Below are positions 18,391-29,734 of a stretch of DNA of 64,000 bases, in pieces. Made by a program: the position numbers and the translations under genes. How positions within the stretch are numbered: the stretch's first letter is position 1; every line of letters starts with the position of its first letter. A model generated the notes under the pieces. That model was given only the letters and a program-made list of their open reading frames with translations, had not been told where the DNA came from and did no database searches. This stretch comes from Lysinibacillus agricola (GTDB lineage: Bacteria > Bacillota > Bacilli > Bacillales_A > Planococcaceae), in contig NZ_CP067341.1 in NCBI RefSeq assembly GCF_016638705.1, forward strand, positions 1,677,501 through 1,741,500, in the 5' to 3' direction.

Positions 18391-20052
18391 TTATAATGTG
18401 AATTTTTTTAGCTCTACAGACAATGTATTTGTCATTTCTTGAAGTTCTGAAACCTTTTCACTAATTTTTTGGAAGGATCCTAACTGCTCTTGAGTGGAAG
18501 CAGAAATTTCTTCTGTTCCTGCTGCGGTTTCTTCCGTAATAGCGGAAATGTTTTCAATGGCACTATTCATTTGCTGGCTCATTTCGCTTGTTTGCTCCAT
18601 ATCCTTAGCAAGGTGTTGTAATTGGTCATTTATGGTTAAAACATGTGAAGCAATTGCCTCAAAAGACTTTTCTGTATCTAACATTGATTGTGACTGCTCT
18701 TTTGAAAGCTGATGTCCATGCTCAGCAGTAGAAAGAATGGTCGTGATACCGTGTTGTATATGTGTGACCATTGAAGAGATTAAACTAGTTGCATTTTCTG
18801 TTTCATTTGAAAGTTTTTTGACTTCCTCTGCCACTATTGCGAATCCTTTTCCAGCTTCTCCAGCCCGTGCAGCTTCGATTGCTGCATTCAATGCCAATAG
18901 ATTTGTTTGATTAGCAATAGCATGGACTGCATTAGCGGCGCCTTCAATTTCTGTTGTGAATTGAGAGAATTGCGTAACAGCCTCTTTAATATCAAGCGAT
19001 GTAGATGAAATATCCTTCGCGATAGAGGATTGCTTTTCTAGTGAATTATGGCCAATTTGAATAGCAGCAAGTGCCTGTTTACCGTTTGCTGCTGATTGTT
19101 CGCTAGTCTGCTGAACTATTGTAAATTGATCTGCCATCGTATTCATGAGGATAGCAGCTGACTGGATATCTTCTGAAATAATTAGGCTTCCTTTTGCCAA
19201 TTCGTCCGTGGATATAGCAATTTGTTTATTGCCTTCATTAACAGTTTCAATATAGCTTGTAACATCGTTTGTAAATAGAGTAACATTTTCACCTACATCG
19301 TCAATGGATTTTACGGTGCTTTTTAAGCTAACAATCATTTTGGAAAAGTTCTCTGTCAGTTGATCAACTTCATTTCGACTGCCTTGCTTATAGGATAGGG
19401 TAGAGGTATCTATTGTCAAATTCCCTGAAGCCACCAATTGTGCACAATCCACGATCCGATTAATCGGATTTGTAATTCTTTTCGTTGCGACATACGAAAA
19501 AATGATGGTAGCAATAATTAGGAGGATACTTCCAATAATTGTTGTTGTAATTATAAAAGTAATTTTTTGCTTTGCCAAATCATTCATTTCTTGATACCAT
19601 TCATTTGTTTCTTTTTTCAGTAGATGCATATCGTTTAATATGCCGGATATTCTTATTGCTTGTTTTTTTATCGCAGGACGGTTGTTAGCAAGAAATCCTG
19701 TTTCGGTAGCTTTTTCCAGTTCCTCGTATTTGCTCTCGATTTTTTTGATGATTGTCTTATGCTCAGATATTTTTGCAATAGTCGAGAGGTTTTCTAAATT
19801 TACTTTCGCTTCTTGTAAAATTGAAAGAGCTTCATTTTTATTGGCCTCACTATCTAAATAAGTGTAATTGTTTAATGATTGGCTCGCTACAACTAAACTT
19901 TGTTCAAGTTCTTTCACTGCGAGTAAAAGTGCTGTATCATCTTGTGCAGTTGTTTGAATATCAAATGTTTGTACGATAATAAAACCAATCATAGCCATTG
20001 CGAGAACAATTGGAATAAGTATGTTCATAAATAATTTTTTTCGTAACGTCAC
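18391..20052 (-). CDS. Methyl-accepting chemotaxis protein (membrane-bound)
   Basis: 553-aa chemoreceptor. TM1 is at about residues 8-28, the extracytoplasmic helical sensor at 30-170, TM2 at about 170-195 with a HAMP domain after it ([20 protein letters not shown]), and the signalling hairpin at about 300-550. The tip is intact, with [20 protein letters not shown] near residue 385. The start is GTG 20052, whose codon overlaps the TGA of the upstream BMP-type gene, with GGGGAG 7 bases before. The two are therefore translationally coupled, suggesting that the binding protein delivers the attractant to this receptor. Confidence 0.93.
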
Positions 20053-21036
20053 TGGATACTCCCCTTTTCTGCGGTAACTTTTATTTTACCCGAGACAATA
20101 TCATCTTGTGCTTTTTCTATGGCAGCCTGTTGCTCAGATGTAAGTTTAATAATACGTATATCCGCAAGTCCGACTCCATTATCAGCTAGACCGAACGAAA
20201 ACGATTTTTCAGAAATTTGCCCGTCCTCGACTAATGTTTTAGCAATTTTATAAACAGCTTGGTCGACATTTTTTAACATGGATGTTACGACAGTTTTTTC
20301 TGCAATGTAAAATTGATCAATATCAACTCCCGCTGCATATACACCCATTTCTTCAGCTTTTTTTATGGCACCAAAGCCTGTGAATCCCGCTGCATGATAA
20401 ATAAAATCTACGCCGTTCTTTATGTAACGTTCTGTGATTGCGGCACCTGCGTCGGTATCATCAAATGTGCCAGCATACTCACTAACAATTTCGATATTTG
20501 GATTAAAATATTGAGCTCCCTCAATAAAGCCGTTTTCAAAATGATGGATAACCGGAACATTTGCACCACCAATAAACCCTATTTTTCCAGTTATACTCGT
20601 CATTGCTGCAACCATTCCAAGTAAAAAACTGCCTTCTTGCTCTTTAAATGTTATTGAAGTGATATTTGCAACATCTGATTGTCCGTCAATAAGGACAAAT
20701 TGCTGATCAGGATATTTCTTCGCAGTTTTTTCCAGTGCCTCCTGTACAGAGAAACCAAGACCGATAATGACGTTATATTTTTCTTCGACAAGTTCTTCTA
20801 GCTTCTGTTCGTAATTGCCATCAGGCGCCTCTTTATAATCAAACAAAATACCTAGCTCATCTCGTGCTTTTTCAAGCCCTTTAAAAGCTGAGTCATTAAA
20901 CGATTCATCACCAAGCCCTGCATCTGAGAGCAAGATACCAATTTTATAGTCATCTTGCGCTTTTTTTCTATGAAGCTGTTGAACAGCCTGCTACTAACAA
21001 AACTATCAAACAAAGGCCAATCATTAATTTTTTCAA
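20049..21036 (-). pseudogene. BMP/Med-type binding lipoprotein with frameshift at the signal peptide
   Basis: Family of basic-membrane-protein lipoproteins that bind nucleosides or related solutes. A TTG start at 21036 behind GGAGG begins a lipoprotein signal ending LLVAGC, but that frame meets TAG six codons after the cysteine codon. The mature domain continues in another frame directly after seven A (20961-20967) as AQDDYKIGILLSDAGLGDES, with later marks NVIIGLGFSVQEAL and FIYHAAGFTGFGAIKKAEEM. One extra base near the A-run accounts for it. The mature part alone is open from 20933. Either the gene is inactive, the A-run is slippery, or there is a sequencing error. Confidence 0.85.
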
Positions 21037-21410
21037 TATGAGTACCTCCAGTTGTATGTATTATTTATCGATCAAAAGTTGTTCTAAGTCAGATGTCAGA
21101 CGACATTTTTTATTTTACCATTAAATATTATCAGATTTTTTACAATTTACTACAGGAAAATGGGTTCAAATCATCCTGAATATTTTTTGGATACTAAGTA
21201 TTTAGTTTGTTATATAATGAGTTTTCTCTATAATGATAGTGGGAAAGGTAGGATGATGTTCATACATAAGTACTAATTCATAAAAATTGCCCCTTTTTTC
21301 TATGGACAATTAAAAAAGCCTAGCAAACACTCAAAGAGTTTGCAGGCTCACTGCCCGAAACAATAGAACGCTTAATGTAGCTTTGGAATAATGTTTGTCA
21401 AATTAAAAAC

Positions 21411-21545
21411 TGTACAAAATTGTTGATATGCTCCCCATTAAGTAGGCAGATGAAAAAATAAAATCTGATTATTTAATGGAGAGTATTTTTATGGCTAAAA
21501 GTAAATATTCCGAAAAACAGCTGGCTGACTACGGAATTATTATGT
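21411..21545 (+). mobile_element. Truncated IS3-family left end with transposase N-terminus
   Basis: ACTGTACAAAATTGTTGATA and GCTCCCCATTAAGTAGGCAG resemble the left end of IS150-type elements. They are followed by GGAG and an ATG at 21491 that begins MAKSKYSEKQLADYGI, the usual start of the helix-turn-helix OrfA. The frame breaks off where it meets the convergent LysR gene. This is a fossil end of an IS with no catalytic part. Confidence 0.5.
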
Positions 21546-22451
21546 CATATGAGGATATATTTTTAATTGCTTTGCTAAATCGTAAATTGAAGTTTTTACA
21601 AATGTATCCATTCTGTTATCTAGACGAGATTTAGGATAAATAAGTTGAATCTTTCTATTAAGTGTCACATCGTGTAGGTCCTTCTTTATCAAAAGTCCTG
21701 ATTTTAACTCATCTTCTATCAGGGCAACTGACAAAAACGCAATTGTTTTTCCGAAAGTAAGCATTTTCTTAATAGTGCTAACAGAATCTAGCTCGATCGT
21801 ATAAATGGATGGGTGAAATGGGTCCATCCATTTTTCTATAAAATGATTCGTTGAACTTGAAGATGTATGCAATAATACTTTGTTTTTTAGGACATCTGCT
21901 TTTGTGATGTCCTTTTTTGCTGCAAGCTCATGGGTAGGGCTTAATGCTAAAACAAGGGAATCTTCGCCGATTGTATCGTAAATAAGAGACGAATTTTCTT
22001 GCTTTGTTTCCATGATGAGCCCGAAATCTAATTCTTGAAGTGCTACCTTTTGTTCAATTTCGGGAGCTGTTTTTACTTCTAGCGATATTCGAATGTCTGG
22101 GTAAGCTGTAGAAACCTGATGAATAATATCTGGCATAAAAATATGTGCGGGTAGCCCGCTTGCGCCAAGACGAATGGAGCCGATATTACCAGCTAAAAGA
22201 TTTTCGATAAAGCGGTTCATGTCTTTTTGAAGCTGTACAATTTGGCGAGCATAATGATAGAGCCCTTCTCCTGCTTCTGTTAAACGGTATCCACCTGCAT
22301 TTGTCCGAAATAAACGGATGCCATATTCCTCTTCAATGGAACGAATATGAAAGGATACGGTCGGTGCTGTAAGACCAAGCTCTTTGGCAACAGGAGCTAA
22401 TTTTTTAAATTCTACAAGTAGGCAAAATGCCTGTAACTTCATATTATTCAT
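21540..22451 (-). CDS. LysR family regulator divergent from the ABC/MBL/CYTH operon
   Basis: 303-aa LysR protein. HTH at residues 1-60 (FKKLAPVAKELGLTAPTVSF), effector-binding domain from about 90. AGGAGG precedes ATG 22451, and a second in-frame ATG follows three codons later. Its 3' end touches an old IS3 fragment at 21545, so the last residues may be new. The 135-bp gap to the divergent operon is AT-rich with several TTAG/CTAA half-sites (for example near 22477-22510). It is the obvious candidate regulator of the operon. The inducer is unknown. Confidence 0.9.
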   Translation of the reverse strand: MNNMKLQAFCLLVEFKKLAPVAKELGLTAPTVSFHIRSIEEEYGIRLFRTNAGGYRLTEAGEGLYHYARQIVQLQKDMNRFIENLLAGNIGSIRLGASGLPAHIFMPDIIHQVSTAYPDIRISLEVKTAPEIEQKVALQELDFGLIMETKQENSSLIYDTIGEDSLVLALSPTHELAAKKDITKADVLKNKVLLHTSSSSTNHFIEKWMDPFHPSIYTIELDSVSTIKKMLTFGKTIAFLSVALIEDELKSGLLIKKDLHDVTLNRKIQLIYPKSRLDNRMDTFVKTSIYDLAKQLKIYPHMT

Positions 22452-22588
22452 TTTATCCTCCTAAAGTAAATTAGAAAAAATCTTAGTTTTACTTTAGTTT
22501 ATTAGATTTTTTTTAACGAGTTATTAATAGTAGATTAATATTTTCTAAATATCTGGAATTTATAGTTGTAATTAACGAGGAGGATATG

Positions 22589-23554
22589 ATGAAAATCTCA
22601 TTAACAAATATCGAGAAAAAATATGGACAGGCTCAAGCGCTTTGGCCCATTAATGTGGAGCTGAACAGCAAATTCATCACCATCTTAGGACAATCAGGTT
22701 GCGGTAAAACAACATTATTAAAAATATTAGCAGGTCTTGAACAACCGACAAATGGAGAAATCGGTTTTGATGAAACCATTATTTACTCATCTAAACTCCG
22801 GAAGAATGTAAAACCAAATAAGCGAAATATTGCGATGGTTTTTCAAGATTTTGCATTGTGGCCACATATGACTGTTTTTCAAAACATTGCTTTTGGCCTG
22901 AAGGGAATTGTTCCAAAGTCAGACATTCCGGCTCGAGTGAAGCATGTTATGCGATTGGTGAAAATGGAAGGATTTGAAAAACGAAAACCTGGGGAGTTAT
23001 CAGGGGGACAGCAGCAACGGGTAGCACTAGCAAGGGCACTTGCGACAAATCCTCAGCTTATTTTGTTTGATGAACCATTATCGGCGCTTGACGCAGTACT
23101 AAGAGAAAAAATGCAAGATGAAATCATGCATATTATTCACGAGCTAGATTGTCAGGCTATTTTTGTCACACATGATCAAACAGAGGCAATGACGATGTCA
23201 GATCAAATTATTGTGATGGAAGCAGGAAGAATTGCACAGGTGGGAACACCAGAAGAAATATATCACGCCCCAGCAACACCGTATGTAGCAGATTTTATCG
23301 GCAAAGTGAACTGGTTTGATAAAGGTAATTATATTGTGCGACCTGAAGGAGTTTCCAGACTATCACGCCCAGGTACGATTGCAAAACAAGCGATGATTGT
23401 AAAAAGTACTTTTGTTGGTGATCGTTATTTAGTGCAGGCACAGGTAGAAGGAAAGCACTGGAGCTTTTACGAAGCAGAACCTATTGAACACGGTAAGCAG
23501 CTTGAAGTTTTTATAGATAAAAAACAAATATATCAATTGGAGGGTTACCATTGA
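22589..23554 (+). CDS. ABC transporter ATP-binding protein (FbpC/PotA-like)
   Basis: 321-aa importer ATPase. Walker A is GQSGCGKTT near residue 35, the Q-loop VFQDFALWPHMT near 87, the signature LSGGQQQRVALARALATNPQ near 137, Walker B LILFDEPLSALD near 160 and the H-loop FVTHDQTEAM near 193. A short C-terminal TOBE-like domain (about 240-320) is typical of iron(III), polyamine and 2-aminoethylphosphonate systems. Two ATGs are adjacent, and GGAGG spacing favours the second (22589). It is the first gene of five tightly packed genes. Confidence 0.93.
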   Translation: MKISLTNIEKKYGQAQALWPINVELNSKFITILGQSGCGKTTLLKILAGLEQPTNGEIGFDETIIYSSKLRKNVKPNKRNIAMVFQDFALWPHMTVFQNIAFGLKGIVPKSDIPARVKHVMRLVKMEGFEKRKPGELSGGQQQRVALARALATNPQLILFDEPLSALDAVLREKMQDEIMHIIHELDCQAIFVTHDQTEAMTMSDQIIVMEAGRIAQVGTPEEIYHAPATPYVADFIGKVNWFDKGNYIVRPEGVSRLSRPGTIAKQAMIVKSTFVGDRYLVQAQVEGKHWSFYEAEPIEHGKQLEVFIDKKQIYQLEGYH

Positions 23555-24576
23555 AACAACGAGGTTTGAAACTATTCGCTACAGCTGGAATTCTTTTAAC
23601 ATTAGCATTAGCGGGCTGTGGAAATAAAGAGGTAGAGAAGAATGATAAAGTAAGTGCAAAGCCGAAAGAAGAGCAAACTTTAACGGTATACTCTGCTGGT
23701 CCAGATGGTTTGGCGGCGAATATTCAACAAGCATTTGAAGAGAAGACAGGGATAAAAGTAGAGATGTTCCAAGGGACAACAGGCAAAATATTATCGCGTT
23801 TAGAAGCGGAAAAAAATAATCCTGTAGCAGACGTTGTTGTACTAGCCTCTGTCGCTTCAATGGATGGTTTAAAGGAAACAGATCAGCTTCAAAGCTATAA
23901 AGATGCTGAAGGTGCAAAGAAAATCAATAGCGATTGGTCAAATGCAGAAGGTTATTACTATGGTTACAGTGCCTCGGCATTAGGAATTGCTTATAATACG
24001 AAAAATACGCAGCAGGCTCCAGCAGAATGGGCAGATTTAGCAAAAGCTGAATGGCAAAATAAAATCAATATACCAGACCCTAGCTTATCAGGCTCTGCTG
24101 TAGACTTCCTATTCGGATATACAGAAGCTGAAAAAACAGCTTGGACTACGATGGAAAAGTGGAAGGAAAATGGTTTACAGGTGAATGGTGCTAATAAGGA
24201 AGCGCTAGATGCTGTTATTACTGGTGACAAAAATGCCACAATTTCAGGGGTAGATTACATGGCCTATAAAGCAAAAGCTGATGGTGAGCCAGTAGAAATT
24301 ATTTATCCAAAAAATGGAACAGTTGTCAGTCCACGTGCTGTTGGTATTTTGAAGGATGCAAAAAACGTAGAGAGTGCAAAAGCGTACGTTGATTTTTTAC
24401 TGTCAGATGAAGGGCAAAAGCTTGTAGCCAATGCTTACTTACTACCAGGCAACAAAGATATACCTGTTAAGGATCGTGCAGCCTTAGATGAAATTCCTCA
24501 GCTAAACGTGAACTGGAAAGGTGCAGAAGCAAAGCAGCTTGAAGTATTAACTAAATTCAATGATATTTTTCGTTAA
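23551..24576 (+). CDS. ABC transporter substrate-binding lipoprotein (iron(III)/AEP type)
   Basis: 341-aa class-2 binding protein. The signal peptide ends in a lipobox (LTLALAGC, Cys near residue 22), so it is anchored to the outer face of the membrane. The mature domain begins LTVYSAGPDGLAANIQQAFE, then GTTGKILSRLEAEKNNP, as in the FutA/PhnS-like group. SLSGSAVDFLFG and GTVVSPRAVGILK are other family points. The start is TTG 23551, which overlaps the TGA of the ATPase gene (ATTGA), so the two are translationally coupled. The ligand could be ferric iron, a phosphonate or another phosphate-like compound. The tyrosine pattern of iron binders cannot be judged here. Confidence 0.9.
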   Translation: MKQRGLKLFATAGILLTLALAGCGNKEVEKNDKVSAKPKEEQTLTVYSAGPDGLAANIQQAFEEKTGIKVEMFQGTTGKILSRLEAEKNNPVADVVVLASVASMDGLKETDQLQSYKDAEGAKKINSDWSNAEGYYYGYSASALGIAYNTKNTQQAPAEWADLAKAEWQNKINIPDPSLSGSAVDFLFGYTEAEKTAWTTMEKWKENGLQVNGANKEALDAVITGDKNATISGVDYMAYKAKADGEPVEIIYPKNGTVVSPRAVGILKDAKNVESAKAYVDFLLSDEGQKLVANAYLLPGNKDIPVKDRAALDEIPQLNVNWKGAEAKQLEVLTKFNDIFR

Positions 24577-24587
24577 GTAGTTGTTTG

Positions 24588-24605
24588 GGAGGTTTTTTAG
24601 CCTCC
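24588..24605 (+). terminator. Weak intra-operon hairpin after the binding-protein gene
   Basis: GGAGG and CCTCC pair around a TTTTTTAG loop, followed by TTTAAGTTTTTC. A weak attenuator here would give more binding protein than permease, as is usual in importer operons. Confidence 0.35.
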
Positions 24606-24638
24606 TTTAAGTTTTTCTAGGGAAGGATTGAATCATCA

Positions 24639-26300
24639 ATGATTATGGAAGGCAGACGAACTTTTGGATTTTTACTGACACTTGTCGTCACGTTTGCTAT
24701 CGCACCGTTAATGGCCATTGCGTTTTATACGTTTATGAAAGATGGGCAATTAGATGTTTCGCAGATTAACAGAATGTTTGCCAATGAAAGAATGTGGCAT
24801 ACACTTGGAAACTCTGTATTATTAGGGGTATTAGTTATAGTTGGGACGACAATAGTTGCATTTCCAATGGCGTTAATAAGAACGAAAACAAGCTTATATA
24901 AATATGATTGGCTAGATATTATTTTAACGATTCCGTTTATGACACCACCATATATTGGCTCCATGGGATGGATATTGTTCATGCAAAATAATGGCTTTCT
25001 CCAACAGCTATTTCCAAGTGCTGCTTGGGTGACTGAATCGTTCTTCTCCTTATTTGGAATGGTCATGATAATGAGCCTACATCTTTTTCCTTTCTTATAT
25101 TTAATGCTGAAAAATACACTATTAAGAATCAATGGCTCCTTTCTTGATGCTGCACTAATTTTTGGACGAAGCTCTTGGAGAAATTGGACGAAAATAGTTT
25201 TGCCTCTAGTAGTTTCTAGCTATGTTCTTGGAAGCTTGTTAATTTTCATTAAAACGTTAGCTGAATTTGGAACACCTGCAACGTTTGGTAGTCGAATTGG
25301 TTTTCAAGTATTTACGACGGAAATTCACTCTTACTTATCTAGATGGCCTGTAGATATTAGTATGGCGACATCGCTCTCGTTATTTTTACTGTCGGTTTGT
25401 CTCGTTATCTGGTATTTTCAAAATCTTATTGGACGCAAATATACATATAGCGTGCTTTCTGGAAAAACACCAGCTATTCGCGAGATTAAAGATCAGTGGT
25501 ATGTCAAGCTTGGTTCATGGCTTTTTGTGGGGATTGTTATTTTGCTATCAATCGGCATTCCTTACTTCTCAATTATCGTGACATCTTTGCAGAAAGTAAG
25601 AGGGGATGGTTTACAAGCAGGGAATTTTAGCTTTGCCTCCTACCAGGAAGTGTTTACAAGTGGAAGTGCTGGATTGTCAGCATTTTTAAATAGTGTTGTT
25701 TTCTCCGTAATCACAGCTGTCGTTACAGCAATTATTGGTTTGTTGATTGCCTTATACATTAAAAAAGGAGAAACGAAAAAGCAGCAAATATTAGATTTCT
25801 TTAGTTTAATGCCTAATATTATTCCTGGAATTGTCTTTGTAGTTGGGTTAATTATGTTTTGGAATGCACCATGGCTACCAGCGACCATCTATAACACAAA
25901 GGCAATGGTTGTAGTCACGTATTGTGTACTTTTTTTACCGTATTCCGTGCAATATATAAAATCTTCTTTATCGCAGTTAGATTCTTCGATATTCCAATCA
26001 ACAGCTATTTTTGGTCGAAGTAGTTGGGCTGTTTATCGACATATTATCATTCCATTATTAATGCAGGGAATTCTTGCTGGAATGATGATGACGTTTATTA
26101 TTTCGATGCGTGAACTTGTCGCTGGATTACTTATTTTGCCTCCTTCAGTAGAGACTGGCGCAACATTTATTTACAGTCAATTTGAACAAGGAAATGTTGG
26201 TGTAGGAATGGCTGTAGCGGTGATTACAGTCGCCATGACCGTTATTTTCATGTTTTTATTAGATTGGCTACAAAAACGGGGAGGACATGCGGATGCTTAA
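24639..26300 (+). CDS. ABC transporter permease, fused double-domain type
   Basis: 553-aa permease with two complete six-helix modules in one chain, as in FbpB/PhnU-type iron(III) or aminoethylphosphonate importers. The EAA loops are visible in both halves (GSFLDAALIFGRSSWRNWTK near residue 170 and DSSIFQSTAIFGRSSWAVYR near 455). The matching FGRSSW pieces show internal duplication. The start is ATG 24639, with a ribosome site (GGAAGGA) rather far upstream. The stop codon lies inside the start of the next gene (8-bp overlap), so the MBL protein is made from the same message and probably in matched amounts. Confidence 0.92.
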   Translation: MIMEGRRTFGFLLTLVVTFAIAPLMAIAFYTFMKDGQLDVSQINRMFANERMWHTLGNSVLLGVLVIVGTTIVAFPMALIRTKTSLYKYDWLDIILTIPFMTPPYIGSMGWILFMQNNGFLQQLFPSAAWVTESFFSLFGMVMIMSLHLFPFLYLMLKNTLLRINGSFLDAALIFGRSSWRNWTKIVLPLVVSSYVLGSLLIFIKTLAEFGTPATFGSRIGFQVFTTEIHSYLSRWPVDISMATSLSLFLLSVCLVIWYFQNLIGRKYTYSVLSGKTPAIREIKDQWYVKLGSWLFVGIVILLSIGIPYFSIIVTSLQKVRGDGLQAGNFSFASYQEVFTSGSAGLSAFLNSVVFSVITAVVTAIIGLLIALYIKKGETKKQQILDFFSLMPNIIPGIVFVVGLIMFWNAPWLPATIYNTKAMVVVTYCVLFLPYSVQYIKSSLSQLDSSIFQSTAIFGRSSWAVYRHIIIPLLMQGILAGMMMTFIISMRELVAGLLILPPSVETGATFIYSQFEQGNVGVGMAVAVITVAMTVIFMFLLDWLQKRGGHADA

Positions 26301-27387
26301 TGTAGAGATTTTAGGTGGAGTCGGTGAGTATGGTCGTAACTGCTTTTTCATTGAAAAAAATGGACATGCTATTTTACTCGATTGCGGAGTGATGAACAAT
26401 CGGCAGAAGACTCTTCCTAATTTAACACAAGCTCATGTTGCAAAGCTTGATGCAGTGTTTATTTCCCATTCACATACAGATCATGTAGGTGCTCTTCCTT
26501 TACTTGAGCGATGGGGATACATAGGACCGATCATTATGAGTAAAATGACTGCGCAGCAATTAAAACAATCTTGCCATCATACAAGAACCTTTCAACCAGA
26601 ATCAATCGGAGAATGGACAGTTGTTAGTAATTGTCTTGCTTTTCAATGGGGTTACAGTGGGCATCTAATAGGAAGCGTTTGGTATAAGATTCGTTTTTTT
26701 GAGGAGGTGATATTTTACTCTGGCGATTATGTGGTAGATTCCTATCTGTTGAAAGCAACACTACCTATAGAGGATGGGACTGTTTATGATGTAGCCATTA
26801 TAGATAGCGGCCACATTGAAAAGCACATCAAAAATATAGAAGTATTACAGCGAATGACGGAATATATCCATGCAAATCCAAACTGTCCGATCATTTTCCC
26901 ATCTTCTTTCTCAGGAAAAACAGCGGATATTGCTACCTATCTTTTTCAGCATACAACAAGAGCGATACGTGTAGATCATGATTTGTTGTCCTTATTTGAA
27001 AATTATTATGAGGCACCTGGAAATTTATTGTCTAACAGAACAATGTTGCAACAGTTTAAACTAGAATGTTTAACAAAAATAACAGAAAGTGAAAACACCA
27101 TTTATTTTGTGCCTGAGCGTAATGAAGCAAAATTAGTGGAGCTGCTTCATAAAAAGCCTACTTCAATAGTAATCTTTACGGGATATTGGAATAAAGGCAA
27201 ATATAAAAGTCCATTTTCCAAAAATCAATATAAAGAATTTTTTTACAAAACGCATCCAGATTATCATGATATCATCGCACTTTCTAGTAAAATACAGGCA
27301 CATAAGACAATCTATTTTCACAGTTCATTAACGAATAGAGATACGACTTTCTTGCAATTACTAAAAAATGAGGAGGAAATACTATGA
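26293..27387 (+). CDS. Metallo-beta-lactamase-fold hydrolase, beta-CASP/CPSF-like
   Basis: 364-aa cytosolic MBL protein. The metal motif HSHTDH is at residues 59-64, with GHLIGS (His near 124) and YSGDY (Asp near 145). These match the RNase J/CPSF73 branch (HxHxDH, GH-xGS, TGD). Later segments resemble beta-CASP motifs: PIIFPSSFSGKTADIATYLF near 200, FTGYWNKGKYK near 300 and a late His in TIYFHSS near 340. GGGGAGG is 8 bases before ATG 26293, whereas the in-frame ATG 26287 is too close. It overlaps both neighbours (permease stop and the next gene's ATG). The substrate is unknown. Nucleic acid or another phosphodiester is the family expectation. Confidence 0.85.
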   Translation: MLNVEILGGVGEYGRNCFFIEKNGHAILLDCGVMNNRQKTLPNLTQAHVAKLDAVFISHSHTDHVGALPLLERWGYIGPIIMSKMTAQQLKQSCHHTRTFQPESIGEWTVVSNCLAFQWGYSGHLIGSVWYKIRFFEEVIFYSGDYVVDSYLLKATLPIEDGTVYDVAIIDSGHIEKHIKNIEVLQRMTEYIHANPNCPIIFPSSFSGKTADIATYLFQHTTRAIRVDHDLLSLFENYYEAPGNLLSNRTMLQQFKLECLTKITESENTIYFVPERNEAKLVELLHKKPTSIVIFTGYWNKGKYKSPFSKNQYKEFFYKTHPDYHDIIALSSKIQAHKTIYFHSSLTNRDTTFLQLLKNEEEIL

Positions 27388-28181
27388 AGAAATGGGCAGT
27401 AAATTTTTATTTAGTTGTCATTGTACTTGTTAGCATCATTGGATTTAGTTCTACACAAGCAAAAGCAGCAATCGAGCCAGGAAATGAAATTAAATTCAAC
27501 ATTAAATCTGAGCCTTTCACTGAATCAGATATTTTAAATGTTTTCCAAGCGACAAAAAAAGATGAAGTGAAGATTTATTTCTTTGATACTCCGAATAGAG
27601 CTTTTCTAAATGAAGATTATATCCATCGTTTACGTGTCTACAAAGGAAGCAATAAAATGGATATCACGTATAAAAAGAGATTTGTAAATACACCTCTGGA
27701 TGAAGCGATTGCTATCACAGAAAGTCATGGCTTCACGGGAGCAGAATCTAACTATAAATTTGAAACGGATATTAAGGGTGACAATCGTACGTTCACAATA
27801 AGTCGTAAGGAATCATTAAAGACTACATCTAAAATTTCTTATGATGCAGTGGATACAAGTGCCGCTAAAAAATTAATTTTAGAAAATGTTCCGAAGAAAG
27901 TTTTAAATTGGGATTCTGAAGCATGGTATCAAAATACATTATCTCAAGCTGTCGTATATGGTCCTGCAAAAGCTACAACATATAAAGGAAGCTTTGCGGG
28001 CTATGCGGCGGATATTGAAGTTTGGCAATATCAAGGGGAGATTATGGTAGAGTTATCAACGAAAGAGGATGATGCATTAAAGGCCGCTGTTATAGAAAGA
28101 GAATGGCATGATCGATTAGCAACAGCAGGTTATTTAAGTGAAGATCAACGCGGTAAAACGGCATTTGTAATGGATAAGTAA
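27384..28181 (+). CDS. Secreted CYTH-like domain protein
   Basis: 265-aa protein with a Sec signal peptide (basic start, hydrophobic core to about residue 25, cleavage near TQAKAAIEPG) and no lipobox or sorting signal. The mature part looks like a CYTH/triphosphate-tunnel fold: NEIKFNIK near residue 33 for the first strand, then KIYFFDTPNRAFLNEDYIHR with LRVYKG (residues about 63-90), DITYKKRF, and NYKFETDI. CYTH enzymes bind inorganic or organic triphosphates or polyphosphate in the tunnel, usually inside the cell. It overlaps the MBL gene by 4 bp (ATGA). Secretion and the operon setting are unusual. Whether all tunnel residues are present needs a structural model. Confidence 0.7.
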   Translation: MKKWAVNFYLVVIVLVSIIGFSSTQAKAAIEPGNEIKFNIKSEPFTESDILNVFQATKKDEVKIYFFDTPNRAFLNEDYIHRLRVYKGSNKMDITYKKRFVNTPLDEAIAITESHGFTGAESNYKFETDIKGDNRTFTISRKESLKTTSKISYDAVDTSAAKKLILENVPKKVLNWDSEAWYQNTLSQAVVYGPAKATTYKGSFAGYAADIEVWQYQGEIMVELSTKEDDALKAAVIEREWHDRLATAGYLSEDQRGKTAFVMDK

Positions 28182-28196
28182 TAAAAAATATTCTTT

Positions 28197-28293
28197 AAAA
28201 TTCGCGACACTTCTGGGAATAGCGAACAAGCCGAGGTGCTAGAGTATCTACAGTGGCTTGTCACTCGTTTGGAGAAGTAGAGCGAATTTTTTT
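28197..28293 (+). terminator. Long hairpin ending the ABC/MBL/CYTH operon
   Basis: AAAATTCGC (28197) pairs with GCGAATTTT (28282-28290). Inside, ACTTCT pairs with AGAAGT and ACAAGCC with GGCTTGT. A run of T follows. The roughly 95-base stem is much longer than an ordinary terminator and could also be a processed RNA. Confidence 0.7.
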
Positions 28294-28420
28294 GGTGTGA
28301 AGTAGGATAGAAGGTAAATAAAAACAAAGAAAAATTTGTTCTAACTTTTTCAATTTAGCTTACACTTACTATAGGACGAACTTAGTGTTGAACAAGGGAG
28401 GAAATGACATAGCGAAAAAA

Positions 28421-29734
28421 ATGGGAATTGTCGCGCTACTTTTATTCGGTGTTTATGTGCTGTGTATGTATTGGTATATATTCCATAGCGGTGGTGGTAC
28501 AATACCACGAGCGTTGCAAGGAACAGCTGCGGATCCAGTGATGTTTATGTCTGAAAAAGAACTATACTTAAGTGGTGAATATTCTAAAATACGGAACTTC
28601 CTATTCTTTGTTGCTACACCTTTGGAATGGTTAGTCTATTTCATGATATTAATTATGGGCGTATCACGTTATTTCGAAAAGGTGGCGACGTCACAAACAA
28701 AATGGAAGCTGTTGCAAAATGCAGGTTACTTATTCTTATTATCACTTTTACTATATGTTGTACTATTCCCACTCGATTATTATCGTTACAATTTAAGCAA
28801 AAGCTATGGTATTAGTACACAAGGGTTTTCGTCATGGATGCGAGATGGCATTATCGATTTTTGGGTCAGCTTTGGCATGAGCTTTATCATTGTGTCTGTC
28901 ATTTATTGGCTCATCAAAAAAAGTGCAAAAAGATGGTGGCTGTATACTTGGTTTCTAACGATTCCATTCACAATATTTGTGATGTTCATTCAGCCTGTTG
29001 TCATTGATCCGTTATACAATGATTTTTATCCGTTGAAAAATAAGGAGCTAGAGGCGAAAATCTTGTCTCTTGCTGAACAGGCAAATATACCAGCAGAGCA
29101 TGTATATGAGGTCAATATGGCAGAAAAAACGAATGCCTTAAATGCTTATGTAACGGGTATTGGCAGTAATTCGAGAATCGTGCTATGGGATACAACCTTA
29201 AATCGTTTAACAGATAATGAAATATTATTTATCATGGCACATGAAATGGGACATTACGTAGAGAAGCATATTTATTTTGGTATTGCAGGATATCTTTTGT
29301 TGACATTGCTAGGATTATGGCTATCAGCGAAGTGTATGAGATGGTTGATTGGACGTCACGGACACGTATTAAAAATTAAAAAAATCAGTGATATAGGTTC
29401 TTACCCGTTGTTTTTACTTATAACATCCGTTTTATTATTTGCTTCAAACCCTCTGTCAAATTATATTTCGAGGTATCAGGAAATGAGAGCCGATCAATAT
29501 GCAATTTCACTAACAGGTGAACGAGAGTCAGCCGTTACGGCATTCCAGAAGCTAACGATATCTGGGCTAAGTGAAGTAAATCCACAGTTACTTGTAAAGT
29601 GGTTCCGTTATACACATCCGCCAATGCTTGAACGTATTTATAAGGTGGCGGAGAATGTAGATGAGAAAAAAGAGGAGCCATTAAAAGAAGTGCCATTAAA
29701 GGAAGAGCAGAAAAAAGAACAGCAGAAGAAATAG
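28421..29734 (+). CDS. M48 family metallopeptidase (Ste24/HtpX-like membrane protease)
   Basis: Integral-membrane zinc protease. About five N-terminal helices are followed by a catalytic domain with HEMGHYVEKH, an HExxH zinc site near residue 280, and a downstream glutamate ligand in RADQYAISLTGE. The start is unclear. GGGAGG at 28396-28401 cannot serve the upstream GTG 28385. The only codon at proper spacing in frame is ATA (28409, giving xAKKMGIV), and the first regular in-frame ATG is 28421. Either ATA is used or translation starts weakly at 28421. The C-terminus is a Lys/Glu-rich tail. It is a quality-control or CAAX-type protease with unknown targets. Confidence 0.87.
   Translation: MGIVALLLFGVYVLCMYWYIFHSGGGTIPRALQGTAADPVMFMSEKELYLSGEYSKIRNFLFFVATPLEWLVYFMILIMGVSRYFEKVATSQTKWKLLQNAGYLFLLSLLLYVVLFPLDYYRYNLSKSYGISTQGFSSWMRDGIIDFWVSFGMSFIIVSVIYWLIKKSAKRWWLYTWFLTIPFTIFVMFIQPVVIDPLYNDFYPLKNKELEAKILSLAEQANIPAEHVYEVNMAEKTNALNAYVTGIGSNSRIVLWDTTLNRLTDNEILFIMAHEMGHYVEKHIYFGIAGYLLLTLLGLWLSAKCMRWLIGRHGHVLKIKKISDIGSYPLFLLITSVLLFASNPLSNYISRYQEMRADQYAISLTGERESAVTAFQKLTISGLSEVNPQLLVKWFRYTHPPMLERIYKVAENVDEKKEEPLKEVPLKEEQKKEQQKK

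Follow-up and report, generated by a model that had tools for sequence, protein, structure and literature searches.

AfuA, the hexose-phosphate-binding protein of an Actinobacillus importer, contacts the phosphate through Ser37 and Ser148-Gly149-Thr150, and was itself misannotated earlier as an iron binder, according to the accessible parts of two reports (PMC4546632, PMC8427247). CYTH proteins, or triphosphate tunnel metalloenzymes, hold the catalytic metal with two N-terminal glutamates and further Glu, and one C-terminal glutamate, invariant in the characterized members, holds the substrate metal, as described in the portion of the source at hand (PMC4641920). Relatives of both proteins are encoded in one operon of Lysinibacillus agricola, in a stretch of 64,000 nucleotides (the window; contig NZ_CP067341.1, positions 1,677,501 to 1,741,500) of its 5.29-Mb genome. 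Genes for the ATPase, the binding lipoprotein and the fused permease of an ATP-binding cassette (ABC) importer are followed by one for a metallo-β-lactamase (MBL) protein of β-CASP type and, last, one for a CYTH-like protein; a gene for a LysR-type regulator is divergent (Table 1). On balance, we lean towards reading this locus as a module of Bacilli, self-contained and linked to LysR, for the capture, import and cleavage of a small phosphorylated compound. The reading is built on the observed gene families, their linkage and co-inheritance, an enzyme swap and conserved motif residues.

The LysR, ATPase, lipoprotein, permease and MBL genes stood together in 60 of 60 distinct MBL-type loci of other Bacilli (each counted once, with the window left out and five duplicates removed from 65), a count conditional on the loci having been found through the MBL or the binding protein. 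The flanks of these loci varied, differing between genera, and a by-eye reading of the genes outside the module gave no recurring clue. By an automatic rule, the MBL and permease genes overlapped or nearly touched in 63 of the 65 loci; the remaining two (L172 and L186) failed the rule owing to an additional MBL gene and an overlapping, long open reading frame (ORF) call, and on reading an MBL gene adjoins the permease gene in both. CYTH genes whose start is signal-like were present in 41 of the 60 loci, as sought in the stretches read, and split genes were scored as present (MBL in L084, CYTH in L249). An earlier, sequence-only reading of the window was to be refuted if relatives did not keep the MBL and CYTH genes next to the ABC genes; relatives do keep them there, with the CYTH gene as an optional part of the module. 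In the 41 loci, the CYTH gene followed the MBL gene in 23, lay outside LysR on the strand of LysR in 16 (genus g44), stood one ORF beyond LysR in L173 and was convergent after the MBL gene in L176. The gene thus keeps company with the module while changing its place, which suggests a functional bond.

In profile searches within the genus, the MBL and the binding protein were found in the same 21 of 32 genomes. A class sample of 398 genomes yielded the binding protein in 39 and the MBL in 36, all of them among the 39 (hypergeometric 4e-48, uncorrected for relatedness); the cut-offs (MBL at least 140 bits, binding protein E 1e-60) were chosen after the scores had been seen, and at most five candidates were scored per genome. 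Four matches to the MBL profile at 68–76 bits (G282, G425, G491 and G515) were dropped as other, longer proteins, and the module was not seen when the stretch from one of them, G515 (L187), was read. Among 200 genomes of the family, a full-length CYTH gene occurred in 23, each time with an adjacent MBL gene, and 6 of the 29 genomes with the MBL were without it (G198, G018, G036, G052, G075 and G164). A separate sample of the phylum gave matches to the CYTH profile in 5 of 398 genomes, each of which has the module.

Scanning named genomes yielded 27 loci, all with the LysR–ATPase–lipoprotein–permease–MBL set, in Lysinibacillus, Viridibacillus, Metasolibacillus, Bacillus ndiopicus, Planococcus, Gracilibacillus, Oceanobacillus, Ornithinibacillus, Amphibacillus and Shouchella. 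The class-wide searches placed the module in further families (our labels 'Paenibacillus-like' and 'Staphylococcus-like' are guesses from gene content). Tree distances of the six module genes correlate at r 0.93–0.99 over 41 loci; a common history of the species would by itself push these values up as well. Two members of the genus, G049 and G127 (L073 and L074), carried only CYTH and LysR remnants between the usual flanks, and profile searches found no MBL or binding-protein match in either; the module is lost in these genomes, with fragments left at its usual place. Separately, a second MBL copy outside LysR was observed in two g55 genomes, besides the permease-adjacent copy (L168 4692-6119; L172 6728-8086). 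Split or irregular module genes, apparently products of decay or sequencing errors, were seen for LysR (L252 3919-4853), lipoprotein and permease (L255 4585-8324), CYTH (L249 2389-3179) and MBL (L084 10001-11119).

The three genomes with the binding protein and without the MBL (G453, G532 and G523) carry the gene for a calcineurin-like phosphoesterase immediately downstream of the permease gene. Its best NCBIfam model was the symmetrical bis(5'-nucleosyl)-tetraphosphatase (59.8–89.8 bits, missing the cut-off of 176), and PF00149 matched above its cut-off (59.3–70.7 bits). Relatives of this enzyme were found in 19 of 61 genomes of the Staphylococcus-like genus of G453. We read 21 phosphoesterase stretches (3 earlier and 18 new): 13 contained the importer, with the phosphoesterase gene adjoining the permease gene, and 10 of these 13 also had a CYTH gene. 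No MBL-labelled gene was present among the genes tabulated for the 21 stretches. Two unrelated metallo-phosphoesterases in one slot, in effect an experiment done by nature, suggest that the activity needed there cleaves a phosphate ester or anhydride, and, with such an enzyme as cytosolic partner, the imported compound is probably phosphorylated. This exchange of the MBL for an ApaH-like enzyme appears to be the best clue to the function of the module. The remaining 8 of the 21 stretches had the phosphoesterase without the importer, 5 of them with LysR, and gave no pointer to a substrate in the 4 that were read. As a side observation, five loci of the Staphylococcus-like genus (L257, L258, L259, L260 and L261) hold importer-free, divergent LysR–phosphoesterase pairs, followed in L257 and L260 by genes for a large protein that looks secreted and for a transporter-like one.

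Among solved structures, the binding protein had as its best relatives AfuA (hexose phosphates), 7li0 (annotated as Fe3+-binding) and P5PA (pyridoxal phosphate), followed by 4r6y (putatively binding 2-aminoethylphosphonate, AEP) and ferric binders. AfuA Ser37 aligns with T77 of the window lipoprotein, and Ser148-Gly149-Thr150 with S180-G181-S182; T77, S180 and G181 were invariant in 18 members covering both enzyme types. The sugar-binding His205 and Asp206 of AfuA are not kept and align with D235 and Y236, which are invariant. Conservation of the phosphate-site residues together with loss of the ring-binding ones makes a phosphate- or phosphonate-type ligand likely, with a different other half. 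K79 and K216, not invariant in the 18 members, could hold extra negative charge of the ligand. Matches of the binding proteins to a thiamine-importer model (TIGR01254/thiB) fell below the cut-off, and this assignment was rejected.

In the window MBL protein, PF00753 matched above its cut-off (49.6 bits), and the best NCBIfam model was a β-CASP ribonuclease at 68.9 bits, far under the cut-off of 580.2. The family profile aligned over positions 2–337 with β-CASP proteins in the PDB at E values down to 7e-27. H61, H63, D65, H66, H126, D147, D173, H323 and H345 were invariant in 16 members at identities down to 25%, and the alignment to INTS11 shows that the MBL motifs and the CASP-region Asp, His and His are kept. 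The Pfam Beta-Casp domain (PF10996) scored above cut-off in 4 of 5 orthologs and did not match the window protein, which has a short CASP part. On these motifs, the MBL protein is likely to be an active hydrolase.

The window CYTH protein matched PF01928 at 19.3 bits, under the cut-off of 23.2; across the family, the match was found at E<=0.05 in 19 of 23 members, and the ortholog in L184 scored above cut-off (24.8 bits). The family profile matched nothing relevant in the PDB, and hhalign aligned short parts with the genome's own YjbK-like protein (probability 11.1%, E 0.0027) and with E. coli ygiF (probability 6.3%, E 0.0059). Because this alignment support is weak, the CYTH assignment rests more on PF01928 in the 19 members. 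With these profile matches, both family assignments of the sequence-only reading, β-CASP-type MBL and CYTH-like, stand. Charged residues invariant in all 23 members were E35, K37, R82, R84, K97, K98, E127, E212, E223, K227 and K258, and D68 was likewise identical in 23 of 23. Of the ygiF residues, the family retains Glu6, Lys8, Arg56, Arg58 and Lys69 but not Glu4. The basic tunnel residues Arg56, Arg58 and Lys69 correspond to R82, R84 and K97; the match of E127 to Glu83 lies beside gaps and is uncertain. By pattern rather than reliable alignment, E223 would be the substrate-metal glutamate, with the invariant S225 at the place of a catalytic-metal glutamate. A signal-like N-terminal segment was read in all 23 members, and the protein is presumably secreted.

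Several observations weigh against the reading of the locus as a capture, import and cleavage module. None of the 23 CYTH members has the first glutamate of the ExExK motif, Gly or a different residue standing in its place, with E35 and K37 kept, so that hydrolysis by this protein is doubtful and it may capture rather than hydrolyse; our prediction is a protein that binds phosphate chains and hydrolyses them weakly or in an altered way. Of the tunnel residues that the sequence-only reading proposed to check, the basic ones are kept and the metal site is incomplete. No CYTH gene was found in the stretches read at 19 of the 60 MBL-type and 3 of the 13 phosphoesterase-type loci. Solved relatives of the MBL protein are mostly nucleases, homologues of the binding protein include iron and AEP binders, and the linkage count depends on how the loci were found, as stated above. 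The claim that the module captures, processes and imports a phosphorylated compound accordingly gained from the ApaH-like swap and the AfuA-like phosphate site, and is modified for the CYTH protein, in which hydrolysis is doubtful and which is an optional part.

We suggest that the secreted CYTH protein would bind, and perhaps trim, a molecule bearing tri- or polyphosphate outside the cell. The lipoprotein would grip the phosphate end and pass the ligand to the ABC importer. In the cytosol, the metallo-phosphoesterase (the β-CASP MBL or, in another branch, the ApaH-like calcineurin-type enzyme) could then hydrolyse a phosphate ester or anhydride, and LysR may sense the ligand or the product and control the operon. 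Here we infer export, substrate, every catalytic step and regulation. A more specific version, which we put forward only tentatively, is a dedicated uptake system for molecules bearing tri- or polyphosphate, in which the weakened secreted tunnel protein would act as chain catcher for the AfuA-like binding protein and either phosphoesterase would finish the work inside. Short-chain polyphosphate, nucleoside polyphosphates and dinucleoside tetraphosphates would be the candidate ligands, held with the same caution.

Phosphonatase-coupled AEP uptake and iron uptake are disfavoured. PhnT2, PhnS2 and PhnU2 were the best NCBIfam models of the three importer proteins, which would make the locus an AEP importer with accessory genes feeding PhnW and PhnX, but all three fell far short of their cut-offs (306.9/457.7, 129.9/392.75 and 147.5/593.25 bits, respectively). 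The LysR protein matched an AEP-associated model at 104.6 bits (cut-off 341.1). PhnX, of all AEP-breakdown enzymes the one searched for, exceeded its cut-off in 13 of the 48 module genomes examined besides the window genome, and stayed under it in the window genome (34.4/220) and in the remaining 35; the search did not extend to PhnW or other AEP routes. We know of no role for the phosphoesterase or the CYTH protein in the PhnWX route, and consider AEP uptake unlikely. A ferric iron importer joined by unrelated passengers would agree with the many solved binding-protein relatives annotated as iron binders. Ferric-binding proteins use a tyrosine pair or run for iron, and in 7li0, an Fe(3+) protein, we take the YYY run to be the iron-binding element; this run aligns with D235-Y236-M237 and is not kept. 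The linkage is also too constant for passenger genes, and the top relative, AfuA, was, by the partial texts cited above, itself wrongly called an iron binder; we regard an iron importer as very improbable.

If the MBL protein were instead an RNA or DNA nuclease with a substrate other than the imported compound, for example trimming the operon's own RNA, its top-scoring solved relatives, the β-CASP nucleases INTS11, CPSF73 and TTHA0252, would be accounted for. Replacement by an ApaH-like phosphoesterase in the same slot would be unexpected for an RNA-processing role, and we hold this explanation to be rather doubtful. A defence or signalling-nucleotide system was raised by weak matches, in which the MBL hit Apyc1 (21.6 bits, cut-off 50) and LmuA (17.2 bits) and the phosphoesterase hit PDC-S10 (19.2 bits), the latter two models from PADLOC, but these matches are small and partial, and the importer, LysR and congruent gene trees better fit nutrient uptake; such a role seems the most improbable of all.

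The five genes, the divergent LysR and the long terminator of the sequence-only reading were all recovered in place, as were its tight junctions. The ATPase and lipoprotein genes overlap by 4 bp, a 62-bp gap with its own stem-loop separates lipoprotein and permease, the permease and MBL genes overlap by 14 bp, or 8 bp from an alternative ATG at 26293, and the MBL and CYTH genes overlap by 4 bp (ATGA). The lipoprotein gene has a TTG start and, by eye, a LALAGC lipobox. Stem-loops folded in the lipoprotein–permease gap in 5 of 6 tested loci, some with different sequence (the exception was L085), and the hairpin in the window is possibly an attenuator. The LysR–ATPase intergenic region, which contains the candidate LysR box, had a mean column identity of 87% in 12 aligned loci. 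No riboswitch or other known RNA matched Rfam above the gathering score in 20900-28500.

Table 1 Features of the importer–phosphoesterase locus in the L. agricola window
Feature	Position	Strand	Evidence
LysR-type regulator, divergent	21540..22451	-	PF03466 113.4 bits, PF00126 50.4 bits; in 60/60 loci
Inverted repeat TATTAAT-N5-ATTAATA, candidate LysR box	22522..22540		Conserved LysR–ATPase intergenic region
ABC importer ATPase	22586..23554	+	PF00005 121.7 bits; best NCBIfam model PhnT2 306.9 bits, below cut-off 457.7
Substrate-binding lipoprotein	23551..24576	+	PF13343 129.5 bits; best solved relatives AfuA, 7li0, P5PA
Hairpin in lipoprotein–permease gap	24587..24606	+	z -3.08; 0/200 shuffles as stable
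Fused double permease	24639..26300	+	PF00528, 2 stretches; PhnU2 147.5 bits, cut-off 593.25 missed
Predicted cytosolic β-CASP-type MBL hydrolase	26287..27387	+	PF00753; without signal-like start
CYTH-like protein, signal-like N-terminus	27384..28181	+	Family-level PF01928 matches
Long terminator-like stem-loop with T run, closing the operon	28197..28290	+	-35.6 kcal/mol, z -3.56, 0/200 shuffles

Beyond LysR, a gene for a BMP-family lipoprotein (window 20049-21000, minus strand) looks broken near its start, with the signal-peptide and mature parts in different frames; in relatives it is a single open frame of ~330 aa. Many Lysinibacillus relatives (for example, L081 and L090) have three genes resembling phosphotransferase system (PTS) components, as judged by eye, between the BMP gene and LysR, and this trio is not present in the window (20933-21540).

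No description of this gene combination was found in the open-access PMC literature, a search without most subscription journals. Importers with helper hydrolases are already known; what we rate as new is the composition of this one, in which the cytosolic phosphoesterase can be exchanged and a tunnel-type protein, presumably extracellular, takes part. The nearest models would name the importer an AEP or iron transporter. In several families of Bacilli, it is linked to a cytosolic phosphoesterase with one or the other of two unrelated folds, and frequently also to a CYTH protein whose start is signal-like. This makes the substrate a tractable question, as screening a single lipoprotein for binding could identify a phosphorus compound that these bacteria scavenge. 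Its identification would correct annotation in many genomes, and both an extracellular CYTH family and an importer-linked β-CASP enzyme would gain a role.

Compared with known systems, the module stands closest in its solved binding proteins to AfuABC (hexose phosphate) and P5PAB (pyridoxal phosphate) of Actinobacillus, whose phosphate-contact positions, Ser37/Thr37 and Ser-Gly-Thr, correspond to T77 and S180-G181-S182. It differs in having D235/Y236 for the ring-binding His205/Asp206 of AfuA and in its fused permease, and the text covered from the reports on these systems mentions no LysR, phosphoesterase or CYTH partner (PMC4546632, PMC8427247). The putative AEP importers PhnS2-T2-U2 (TIGR03261/03265/03262) provide the best NCBIfam models, PhnU2 spanning the fused permease end to end, whereas the module scores below their cut-offs, mostly lacks PhnX and has extra phosphoesterase and CYTH genes. 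With the β-CASP nucleases INTS11, CPSF73, TTHA0252 and RNase J, the MBL protein shares HxHxDH, the third-motif His, the fourth-motif Asp and the CASP-region Asp/His/His, but it has only 366 aa and a short CASP part, and its gene lies in an importer operon. The enzyme found in its place comes closest, among NCBIfam models, to the ApaH-type bis(5'-nucleosyl)-tetraphosphatases; it scores below the cut-off (59.8–89.8 of 176) and is encoded in an importer operon. Finally, among the CYTH/triphosphate tunnel metalloenzymes (E. coli ygiF, AtTTM3 and YjbK), the CYTH protein resembles ygiF in the second ExExK glutamate and its lysine, two tunnel arginines and the tunnel lysine, and differs in its signal-like start, longer C-terminal half and missing first ExExK glutamate.

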